From: Sporanaerobium hydrogeniformans
GTDB taxonomy: Bacteria; Bacillota; Clostridia; Lachnospirales; Cellulosilyticaceae
Length of the DNA stretch: 64,000 bases
Direction of reading: 5' to 3'
NCBI RefSeq assembly: GCF_002735925.1
Contig: NZ_PEDL01000002.1
Span: forward strand, 124,001-188,000
This document shows positions 11,646-14,612 of the stretch, piece after piece. The translations under genes and the position numbers were made by a program. Position 1 is the stretch's first letter. Each line of letters begins with the position of its first letter. The notes below the pieces were generated by a model. The model made no database searches. It was not told the DNA's origin and saw nothing but the letters and a program-made list of their open reading frames with translations.

Positions 11646-12923
11646 ATGATGGATAATGTATCTTCAGACAAAAAAAGCTTAAAAGAGCGTTTAAAATCTT
11701 TAGTAGTAGGGATTTTAATAGTCCCAGTTATCATCTTTTTATTGATTACTGAAGCTATTGTACATAACTGGGTAAGAAGTATTCTGCTTACAGTATTAGT
11801 AACCATTATTATGATTATAAGTGGAATGATTATTGCTTTGCCTATTAAGAAATTAATAAAAAAATATGGAAGAGAAGTAGCACGTATTAAAGAGGGGGAT
11901 TTTACACTCCTAGAGGAATTAGAGCAATATAAATCGAATAAGGCATTTGCGGCTTTAACGGAAGTTTTAGGTGAAGTTTTAGGTGAGTTTAAGGGACTTA
12001 TTGATTCAACCTTTTATATGATGCAATCTATTGTTGGTTCTAGTAAAAAGGTGCATAAGGTAGCAGATGAAACAGTAACAGCTATGGAAGCGATATGTGA
12101 CACCTTACAAGACATTGCAGTAGGTGCAACTAAGCAAGCTTCACAAAGTCAAAGTTGCCAAGCTATGATGGAAGCTTTATCAACAGAGATTGAAAGCACT
12201 AATAAAAGCTGTAAAAGCATGTTAGAAGCCACTCAAAGAATTACAGTTTTAAGTGATGAAGGAAGTCAGTCTCTCTCTGTCCTTCGTAATAAAACAGGTG
12301 AAACAGCTGATTCCATAGAAAGTATTTCTGTAGCTATTAAAAATTTAAATGAAAAACTTAAGCATATTGCGACTTTCGTAGACTCTATTGAGAATATCGC
12401 TTCTCAAACGAATCTTCTTGCTCTAAATGCAGCAATAGAAGCTGCTCGTGCAGGAGAAGCGGGAAGGGGCTTTGGAGTAGTGGCAGAAGAAATTCGAACA
12501 TTAGCAGACCAAAGTAGACAATCTACAGATGAAATTAAGAATCTTGTGGAAGGCATTTATGCAGAAGCAGATGAAGCAACTCGTGTAATGCAACTGGTGA
12601 ATCGTGCGACAGAAGAAGAAGAAAGGGCTGTTGCTCAAACAGATACAGCATTTAAAGAAATTACTACAGGTATTCAGTTTATCATTGAAAAAATTGATAC
12701 AGCAGCAGTCTCTATTACAAAAGTTAATCATGATAAAGAAGGAGTTGTTTCTGCTATAGAAGCTATTTCAGCTGTTACACAAACCACAGCAGCTTATACA
12801 GAAGAAGTAGCAAGTACAGCTCAAACTCAAATGACAGTTATGGAAGAATTAAAGACCTCTGCCAATGAGCTCAATGAGCAAGTTCTAACTATTGATAAAA
12901 AATTAGCTAAGTATAAGCGATAA
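11646..12923 (+). CDS. Methyl-accepting chemotaxis protein without an external sensor domain
   Basis: This 425-residue protein has two close membrane helices (about 17-38 and 44-66) joined by a loop of a few residues, so there is no room for an extracellular ligand domain. A short HAMP-like region and the long coiled-coil signalling domain follow. The hairpin tip that contacts CheA/CheW is clear ([20 protein letters not shown], then [12 protein letters not shown]). Such receptors sense cytoplasmic, membrane or energy signals. It has its own terminator and no chemotaxis neighbours. Two ATGs (11646, 11649) are possible. Confidence 0.92.
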
Positions 12924-12930
12924 GAATAGA

Positions 12931-12965
12931 AAAAGCATCTTCAGTCTGAAGTATGCTTTTTTATT
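12931..12965 (+). terminator. Intrinsic terminator after chemoreceptor gene
   Basis: The stem AAAAGCAT-CTTCAG / CTGAAG-T-ATGCTTTT has one bulged T and runs into TTTTTT. Confidence 0.85.
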
Positions 12966-12995: not shown

Positions 12996-13024
12996 TTGAC
13001 AGGCAACCGTTCTTAGTGTAAAAT
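12996..13024 (+). promoter_or_regulatory. Sigma-A promoter for the CNNM/CorC transcription unit
   Basis: TTGACA, 17 bases, TAAAAT. This is a perfect -35 and a five-of-six -10 at ideal spacing. Transcription should start near 13031, leaving a leader of about 335 nt before the coding sequence at 13365. Confidence 0.85.
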
Positions 13025-13065
13025 AGATTTTAATTTAAATAAATGAGTTAAAAAGGAGAGTATTC

Positions 13066-13150
13066 AATTTATGGAATCTAGCGATGAAGGTGACGAGGCG
13101 GAATGTTTCTGTAGCTACAGAGCCTTATTTTGCGTAACTTTAGATACATA
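13066..13150 (+). promoter_or_regulatory. Structured leader element, candidate riboswitch or peptide-coded sensor (class not recognised)
   Basis: By hand I can fold nested helices. P1 joins 13070-13080 (TATG, then ATCTA) with 13141-13150 (TAGAT, then CATA). ACG (13093-13095) pairs with CGT (13133-13135), AGGC (13096-13099) with GCCT (13122-13125), and TCTGT (13108-13112) with ACAGA (13117-13121). Purine-rich unpaired stretches (GCGATGAAGGTG and GGAATGTT) lie on the 5' side, as in many metabolite- or ion-binding RNAs. ATGAAGG (13084-13090) is also exactly complementary to CCTTCAT (13194-13200) in the 5' arm of the downstream terminator, so the two folds could exclude each other. It does not match the M-box or yybP-ykoY elements as I know them. 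Confidence 0.55.
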
Positions 13151-13187
13151 TAAAAAAATGAAAATAGAATATAAAAAGAGAGAATGA
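13071..13187 (+). CDS. Possible 38-aa leader peptide with acidic N-terminus
   Basis: An ATG lies 12 bases after AAGGAG and opens a 38-codon frame starting MESSDEGDEAE, then CFCSYRALFCV, and ending with a basic tail (YKKRE). Six of the first eleven residues are Asp or Glu. The TGA (13185-13187) touches the first base of the terminator stem, the arrangement expected for translation-coupled attenuation. It shares its DNA with the foldable element, so it may instead be a by-product of RNA structure. No homologue is known to me. Confidence 0.4.
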   Translation: MESSDEGDEAECFCSYRALFCVTLDTYKKMKIEYKKRE

Positions 13188-13244
13188 ACATAGCCTTCAT
13201 GTGCATATAAATTAAGATGCTAAAAATGTAGGTTATGTTTTTTT
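13187..13244 (+). terminator. Leader terminator upstream of CNNM/CorC gene
   Basis: The outer stem 13187-13200 (AACATAGCCTTCAT) pairs with 13226-13239 (ATGTAGGTTATGTT; one mismatch, one G-U). An inner GCAT/ATGC helix sits in the loop, and a run of seven T follows. It lies 120 bases before the coding sequence in the same transcript as the promoter at 12996, so it should act as a conditional terminator. Confidence 0.75.
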
Positions 13245-13364: not shown

Positions 13365-14612
13365 ATGAGTAGTAGTGATATAGGAACGTTGGGATTATTA
13401 AGTATATTAATTTTAATGTCTGCATATTTTTCGGCAACAGAAACAGCTTTTTCATCTTTAAATAGAATTAGGCTTAAGAACATGGCTGGCAAAGGTAATA
13501 AGCGTGCAGCTCTTGCATTAAAGCTTTCAGAAGATTATGATCAAGTACTTTCTAGTATTTTGATTGGAAATAATATTGTAAATATTGCTTCAGCCTCTAT
13601 TGCAACAGTATTTTTTACGAAGACTTGGGGGGATGCAGCTGTTACTTTATCCACCATTATTACAACCGTTGTAGTTCTTATTTTTGGTGAGATTTGTCCT
13701 AAAAGTATTGCAAAAGATATGCCAGAGCGCTTTGCGATTTTATCTGCACCTATTTTGAATGTGATTTGCTACCTCCTTACTCCTCTAAACTTTTTATTTA
13801 AAGGACTTAAAAAGCTTATAAATAAGTTGCTTAACTCCAAAGAGGATAGAGGGATTACTGAGGAAGAAATACTTACTTTGGTAGAAGAGGCACAAAGTGA
13901 TGGTGGCATTAATAAAGAAGAAGGCGAGCTTATTAGAAGCGCTATTGAGTTTAATGATTTAGATGCAGTTGACGTATTTACACCTAGAGTAGATGTAGTA
14001 GCCGTAGAAGAAACAGCCACACGAGAAGAAGTAAAAAAAGCTTTTATGGAAAGTGGTTATTCGAGATTGCCTGTCTATAGAGGGGATATTGATAATATTA
14101 TAGGCATTATTAATGAGAAAGATTTTTATAATAAAGTAGTTGACTTAAATGAAGTATTAGATAGTATTATTGCACCACCTATTTTTGTTGCACCAACTAT
14201 TAAGATTTCTCATCTTATGAAGCTTTTACAACAAAAACAGTCCCACATTGCTATCATTGTGGATGAATATGGGGGAACAAAGGGGATTGTAACATTAGAG
14301 GATATTATTGAAGAATTAGTGGGAGAAATTTGGGATGAACATGATGAGGTAGTAAGTGAAATCATTCAAGTTTCTGAAAATGAATATAAAGTATTAGGTT
14401 CTGCCAATGTAGAGAAGGTGTTTAGAGAGCTTAATAGGGATGAAGAAATGGATGCTATGTCTATAAATGGGTGGGTATTTAATGAATTTTCAGCTATACC
14501 TGAAGAAGGTGATAGCTTTCAGTACAAAAATCTTAAGGTAGTTGTTTTGAAAATGGAAGAGAGACGGGTGCTGGAGGTAAGTATTACTGTATACCCTGAA
14601 AATGAAGAGTAA
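13365..14612 (+). CDS. CNNM/CorC (HlyC) family transporter with CBS domains
   Basis: This 415-residue protein has an N-terminal DUF21/CNNM membrane domain (about 5-150) with [20 protein letters not shown] and [15 protein letters not shown], two CBS domains (about 205-320, including [18 protein letters not shown] and [15 protein letters not shown]), and the CorC_HlyC C-terminal domain (about 335-412). Bacterial members (CorC, MpfA, B. subtilis YhdP) are linked to Mg2+ efflux, and the CBS pair binds ATP-Mg. Older annotations call them hemolysins. AGAAGGGA precedes the ATG. It is a single-gene unit controlled by a long leader with its own terminator. Confidence 0.92.

Follow-up and report, generated by a model that had tools for sequence, protein, structure and literature searches.

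The locus studied here raises the question of whether a short acidic peptide, encoded ahead of a membrane protein gene in Sporanaerobium hydrogeniformans, could tie the expression of that gene to Mg2+. The window, that is the whole 64 kb stretch of DNA that was analysed, contains a leader with a predicted promoter, a Shine-Dalgarno (SD) site, a short ORF and a terminator, followed by a gene of the CNNM/CorC family (Table 1).

Anatomy of the leader and a proposed mechanism

The 38-codon ORF starting MESSDEGDEAE, on which the sequence-only reading was built, is present, with a promoter and an SD site upstream. From the predicted promoter, transcription is expected to start at about 13031. The distance from the SD motif to the ATG is about 11 nt, which is slightly long. 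The N-terminus of the encoded peptide reads MESSDEGDEAECF..., and five of its residues 2-9 are acidic. The stop codon had been said to touch the terminator stem and it does: the 5' arm starts with the second base of this codon, giving a two-base overlap. This hairpin is omitted by a simple terminator scan because its loop exceeds the allowed length. The ORF, its acidic N-terminus, the terminator and their overlap are read from the DNA itself. The gene upstream (11646-12923), for a chemotaxis-type protein, is followed by a separate terminator-like hairpin, seen by eye near 12933-12965, and the leader is therefore an independent unit. As a whole, the leader folds barely better than shuffled sequences (z -1.84; 5/200 shuffles equally good).

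Table 1. Features of the leader and of the following gene (positions in the window).
Feature	Position	Strand	Remarks
Predicted sigma-A promoter: TTGACA (12996-13001), 17 nt, TAAAAT (13019-13024)	12996..13024	+	11/12 matches
SD site AGGAGA of the leader ORF	13054..13059	+	computed duplex energy -8.7 kcal/mol
Leader ORF, 38 codons/38 aa, MESSDEGDEAECFCSYRALFCVTLDTYKKMKIEYKKRE	13071..13187	+	ATG at 13071, stop TGA at 13185-13187
Intrinsic terminator hairpin GAACATAGCC...GGTTATGTTT	13186..13240	+	-16.5 kcal/mol, T run to about 13244
CNNM/CorC (DUF21-CBS-CorC_HlyC) membrane protein, 415 aa, probable Mg2+ export protein	13365..14612	+	domain matches

The product of the downstream gene carries CNNM, CBS and CorC_HlyC domains, which place it in the CNNM/CorC family, and it matches solved CNNM/CorC proteins across most of its length. 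It is encoded by the sole CNNM gene above cut-off in the genome. The "efflux-type transporter" of the earlier reading can thus be specified as a member of a family linked to Mg2+ export, export itself being predicted from homology. The CNNM homologue MpfA of Staphylococcus aureus is reported to mediate Mg2+ export (PMC6711546) and, by homology to MpfA, the gene is a probable Mg2+ exporter gene.

It can be proposed that the leader attenuates transcription of this probable Mg2+-export gene in a translation-dependent way. By default the gene would be off, transcription ending at the terminator. A ribosome reaching the leader stop codon would cover the 5' arm, the terminator would not form and the exporter would be transcribed. 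The sensor would be the acidic codons 2-10. At low Mg2+, the ribosome would fall off the acidic stretch by intrinsic ribosome destabilization (IRD), leaving the exporter off, while at ample Mg2+ it would complete the ORF and the exporter would be on. Such an attenuator, switching the exporter on at high Mg2+ through ribosome drop-off, appears to be the best reading of the sequence, and a reasonably probable one.

Over both strands of the window, the leader ORF is the only SD-preceded ORF of 8-70 codons with at least four acidic residues at positions 2-9. Moreover, five acidic residues at positions 2-9 were reached by 0/3360 dinucleotide shuffles of the orthologous leaders. The leader DNA occurs in one copy in its own genome. 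Searches for DNA-level homologues returned only short AT-rich chance matches in 24 family genomes, and found none in phages. No Rfam family matched the leader at the gathering cut-off; one lncRNA match (E 2.6) was taken as chance. An acidic leader peptide of a clostridial CNNM/CorC gene was not found in the open-access literature, to which the search was confined. Because the leader has no DNA homologue in the 24 family genomes, conservation was tested on the leaders of orthologous genes.

Acidic leader peptides in orthologous genes

Orthologues were collected from 80 loci of named genomes and from further genomes of the same order and class. Among them, 172 had at least 200 nt upstream, giving 168 distinct leaders. 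ORFs were chosen by SD duplex energies; earlier word-based SD rules had mis-picked several leaders. For terminators, an initial finder was too noisy and was replaced by a rule based on a hairpin and a T run. An IRD-like rule scored 68/168 leaders, and hand curation (-7, +11) brought this set to 72. L144, L131, L151, L197, L196, L182 and a wrong pick in L114 were dropped as apparent ends or parts of other genes, and L114, L085, L093, L102, L111, L127, L077, L079, L129, L130 and L133 were added by eye. Within the curated 72, L077, L130 and L133 are weak members, and in L079 and L129 a single acidic residue precedes a proline. Curation leaves 96/168 leaders without an acidic ORF; 28 of these 96 have a hairpin and T run in the last 260 nt (some checked by eye). 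Two of the 28, L156 and L184, proved on inspection to have acidic ORFs, which brings the 96 to 94. These two were included in the ribosome-footprint and antiterminator tests described below, which cover 74 leaders, 44 of them with terminators.

Some genes depart from this arrangement in other ways. In the clade of L090, L103 and L115, the acidic leader upstream of the CNNM gene is replaced by a small conserved protein whose C-terminal region contains FHGEVPDCCKL and which recalls the putative metal-binding proteins with an "LDCC motif". Several CNNM genes without a leader themselves start with an acidic MDD, MDG or MDS, e.g., L161 (ATGGACGACAGT) and L147 (ATGGACGATGGT); they were excluded from the counts, and their starts recall the N-terminus of E. 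coli CorC, reported to be of the IRD type.

SD-preceded ORFs with at least three D/E at residues 2-9 were found in 43/168 leaders, with at least four in 17 and with five in 7. The score of at least three was reached by far fewer controls: 3/168 on the reverse complement, 4/168 in frame +1, 7/168 in frame +2, 62/3360 dinucleotide shuffles and 2/21 paralogue leaders. Upstream of other genes at the same loci it was reached in 25/277 cases (Fisher p 5e-6), many of which are start codons within real genes. When the ORF was picked by the strongest SD, blind to acidity, 29/90 were acidic, versus 6/160 for other genes and 5/841 for shuffled sequences. In these blind-picked N-termini, Asp is enriched (0.164 vs 0.024 for other genes) and Glu is not (0.056 vs 0.045). 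This counts against the proposed mechanism, since general acidity does not predict a preference for Asp. Past residue 12, acidic content is ordinary (0.060 vs 0.065).

Two types of peptide can be recognised, one with Asp runs (MDSDAGD, MDDSDDSD, MDDSDDSDSD, MDDADSDAD, MDESDDSDG) and one with Asp/Glu and Pro (MDEPP, MDDVPL, MEDLP and, in L112, MEPDD). Each occurs in several parts of a tree of the full-length proteins. This tree took in 112 of the 168 orthologues, 919-base pieces without the full gene being left out. Its 59/112 members with an acidic leader are clustered yet scattered: the trait requires 21 changes, versus 37.6 when shuffled, and 8 are forced by well-supported branches. Carriers include gut and soil bacteria and belong to Lachnospiraceae, Oscillospiraceae, Eubacteriaceae, Christensenellaceae and Clostridiaceae. 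A pattern joining an SD to MDEPP gave 6 matches in 391 genomes, its fixed spacing also missing genuine leaders. As candidates for MDEPP leaders before other genes, five of the six were rejected as lying within, or running on as, a longer coding sequence; the remaining one (L226) was an unrelated frame of 78 codons and was rejected too.

Codon-level conservation, which the sequence-only reading had proposed as a check, was found: the homologous leaders behave as coding sequence, and the conserved part is the acidic N-terminus. In all 11 alignable clusters, pN/pS is below 1 (0.10 to 0.82), with values of 0.10, 0.15, 0.25, 0.39 and 0.50 in five and 0.61-0.82 in six more divergent ones; the clusters were selected by peptide similarity, which biases them toward low pN/pS. 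Between nearest pairs, third positions hold 45/92 changes at residues 2-10 (p 0.0014) and 187/480 beyond residue 10 (p 0.006), and identity is 76% at residues 2-10 versus 49% for the rest of the peptide. Codon use at the N-terminus is varied, Pro being encoded by CCC, CCG, CCA or CCT and Asp by GAC or GAT. As judged from these substitutions, it is the leader peptide, above all its start, that is under selection, and not the RNA alone.

Output geometry and the predicted sign of a possible switch

A hairpin followed by a T run was found in 42/72 curated acidic leaders, versus 18.6% of shuffles, and hairpins at -14 kcal/mol or better in 37/72, versus 4.4%. In 40/42 terminator leaders, the hairpin starts inside the ORF or at most 12 nt past its stop (permutation mean 35.2, p 0.0026), and in 13/42 the ORF traverses the entire hairpin. 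The exceptions are L073 and L087, with the hairpin 56-59 nt beyond the stop. In another 13/72 leaders, the ORF ends at the start of the gene (-4 to +12 nt), a geometry of translational coupling. Within or just after the ORF, 5/17 remaining leaders have 8-9 nt complementary to the SD region of the gene (0.7 expected at 7 nt or more). No output mode fits 12/72 leaders; among these, L095, L100, L108 and L132 show by eye a hairpin and then a short T run. Many acidic leaders have similar terminators (approximately GGCATA-CC ... GG-TATGCC, TTTTTGCG), as seen at 13186-13244 of the window and in L066, L091 and L180, and the likeness persists where the ORFs differ. It could mean that whole leaders descend from a common ancestor, or that another constraint acts on them.

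The effect of a ribosome on the 44 terminators was modelled by letting it cover the RNA from 15 nt upstream to 13 nt downstream of the first nucleotide in the A-site codon. At codon 6, the ribosome disturbs 0/44 terminators. Placed between codon 12 and the stop, it leaves a hairpin of less than 7 kcal/mol in 33/44; in the other 11/44, a hairpin of at least 7 kcal/mol persists wherever the ribosome stands in this interval. For the window leader, the model predicts that a ribosome standing on the stop codon weakens the hairpin from -16.5 to -2.2 kcal/mol. In each output mode the ORF ends at the off-switch or at the gene start, and we infer from this anatomy that finishing the ORF would turn the gene on and early drop-off would leave it off. 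That one sign would be shared by all output modes is the strongest reason to prefer the logic of the sequence-only reading.

That a finished ORF switches the gene on is thus what the geometry and the modelled occlusion predict. The claim is weakened by L078, L081 and L145, which have a terminator without an acidic ORF. L078 and L081 are the two closest sisters of the acidic leader L027 and have kept the terminator, and in L145 the terminator lies directly past the transcription start. Terminators can therefore exist at CNNM leaders without the peptide. These three leaders also bear on whether homologues ever keep the RNA helices and lose the reading frame, which would speak against a role of the peptide: close pairs retain the reading frame and a conserved antiterminator was not found, but such terminators without an acidic ORF do occur. 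RNA polymerase probably moves ahead of the ribosome in Bacillus subtilis. This would weaken the occlusion of the window terminator, with the end of its 3' arm about 55 nt past the stop.

Which signal would act on the ribosome is a separate matter, as the anatomy of the leader cannot tell signals apart. The same attenuator geometry could respond to a different cause of slowed or aborted early elongation over Asp/Pro codons, such as ribosome stress, an ABC-F factor (EttA), EF-P or ATP. EttA is reported to relieve pausing and drop-off at early acidic residues, those of MgtL included (PMC11282234), and the proline-rich class (MDEPP) would respond to EF-P too. We nevertheless regard another signal as rather unlikely: the gene is related to Mg2+ export, and Mg2+ as input makes the simplest closed loop. 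Mg2+ is proposed because the CNNM family is tied to Mg2+ export (PMC6711546), because early acidic or acidic-proline residues are reported to provoke drop-off at low Mg2+ in MgtL (PMC11282234), because acidic residues of MgtQ are reported to set mgtB expression (PMC8092293), and because corC and mgpA of Salmonella are reported to be more highly expressed at high Mg2+, CorC itself having a reported IRD sequence (PMC12421838). Both sequence types known to destabilize ribosomes, acidic runs and acidic residues with proline, are present among the leaders.

Classical amino-acid attenuation, where a shortage of Asp (or Pro) would stall the ribosome on the N-terminal codons, would agree with the enrichment in Asp and not Glu, and with the many leaders in which 3-5 Asp codons are consecutive or alternating. 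It is very unlikely, however, in view of a whole class with Glu and Pro and one Asp (MDEPP, MEDLP), and since a stall at codon 6 leaves 44/44 terminators intact, a shortage would shut the gene off. Furthermore, the gene is unrelated to Asp synthesis. Unlike attenuators of amino-acid biosynthesis (trp/his type), the leader precedes a transporter gene and no antiterminator is conserved. Indeed, when pairing between ORF start and terminator arm was ranked against shuffled sequences in 44 leaders, the median rank was 0.58 and the window ranked at 0.20; a rank of 0.05 or below was reached in 1/44, and conserved antiterminator pairing was not found.

This last result also bears on an RNA-only switch of reversed polarity, in which ATGAAGG of the ORF (13084-13090) would pair with CCTTCAT of the terminator 5' arm, so that an untranslated leader would antiterminate. 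A shortened transcript does fold in this way, but the full-length leader prefers the terminator, Rfam gives no match and codon-wise conservation would not be expected, making this explanation highly improbable. Just as improbable is a functional small acidic protein (metal-binding, DxDxD-like, DxDxD patterns resembling metal-binding loops) that merely precedes the gene while the terminator sets a basal ratio: purifying selection would look alike, but the character is kept only at residues 2-10, lengths (12 to 88 codons) and C-termini vary freely, and several ORFs run through the terminator and encode its hairpin.

Drop-off at low Mg2+ is thus the preferred reading for the window, where we infer that it would occur in S. 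hydrogeniformans itself, with Mg2+ as the signal and the exporter gene switched accordingly. For clostridia at large, the balance is even: acidic or acidic-proline leaders with three or more types of output (intrinsic terminator, SD-hiding hairpin, coupling to the gene start) may turn CNNM/CorC exporters on at high Mg2+. The leaders would supply natural test sequences, some of them from culturable acetogens such as Acetobacterium wieringae DSM 1911, whose leader (L068) is of the coupled type.

Comparison with known Mg2+-responsive leaders

In MgtL, the leader of mgtA in E. coli and Salmonella, an EPDP sequence is reported to destabilize the ribosome at low Mg2+ and to set transcription of the transporter (PMC11282234). 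L112 (MEPDD) and the MDEPP leaders resemble this EPDP. As in MgtL-like leaders of the IRD type, the window has an SD-preceded ORF with an acidic N-terminus, predicted to be translated, before a gene of a Mg2+ transport family. However, MgtL acts on an importer gene by Rho-dependent termination, and its completion turns the gene off, whereas here the gene is of the export type, the terminator is intrinsic and completion is predicted to turn the gene on. With a CNNM/CorC gene and an intrinsic terminator overlapping the stop, the leader falls outside the MgtL family proper; it resembles MgtL by mechanism and is not a family member, the gene, the type of terminator and the sign being different.

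MgtQ, a translation-aborting short ORF of Salmonella mgtCBRU, is reported to set Mg2+ transporter expression through Asp2 and Glu5 (PMC8092293). The window likewise has a short acidic ORF proposed to govern a Mg2+ transporter; MgtQ differs in acting on the translation of an importer within an operon, abortion turning mgtB on. Closer in physiology are the enterobacterial corC (ybeX) and yoaL-mgpA, which are Mg2+-tolerance, export-side genes. Salmonella corC and mgpA are reported to be raised by high Mg2+, and the N-terminus of CorC is reported to be prone to IRD; loss of the start of YoaL, the leader of mgpA, lowers MgpA translation (PMC12421838). In CorC, by difference, the IRD sequence lies within the protein itself, and the available text of that source describes no terminator attenuator (PMC12421838).

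The M-box (ykoK, RF00380) is also a Mg2+-responsive leader of Mg2+ transport genes, but it is an RNA aptamer that is off at high Mg2+. Its covariance model gives no match in the window leader. The only match in the genome (G000:C22:28698-28870, at about 1500-2000 of locus L220) lies upstream of an mgtE-like gene, and import and export would therefore fall under two unrelated Mg2+ sensors. Between this M-box and the mgtE-like gene stands an SD-preceded short ORF, MEDEWNSRQDINRNRKKNSFYRAKESSVLQLLL (L220, 1786); a related ORF, MDGECSGQGINRNRKKKRFYVAKKPSVLWPI, occurs at the M-box locus of another member of the family (L233, 1787). In L230 (1794), an SD-preceded ORF starting MDSDSSKNSSDN follows another M-box just before a different gene, which we take to resemble that of an undecaprenyl-diphosphatase; possibly the acidic-leader idea recurs there on another gene. 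A combination of an M-box and an upstream ORF is reported in Mycobacterium tuberculosis (PMC12810186). M-box riboswitches were found in 7/59 relatives, and the proposed mechanism, if true, would explain how excess Mg2+ is sensed where they are uncommon. So far, the link between destabilization by acidic nascent chains and Mg2+ control comes from enterobacteria and mostly concerns importers. If the present reading is correct, the ribosome would serve generally as a Mg2+ sensor, connected by evolution with either sign, and the leaders of clostridial exporters would mirror both MgtL and the M-box.
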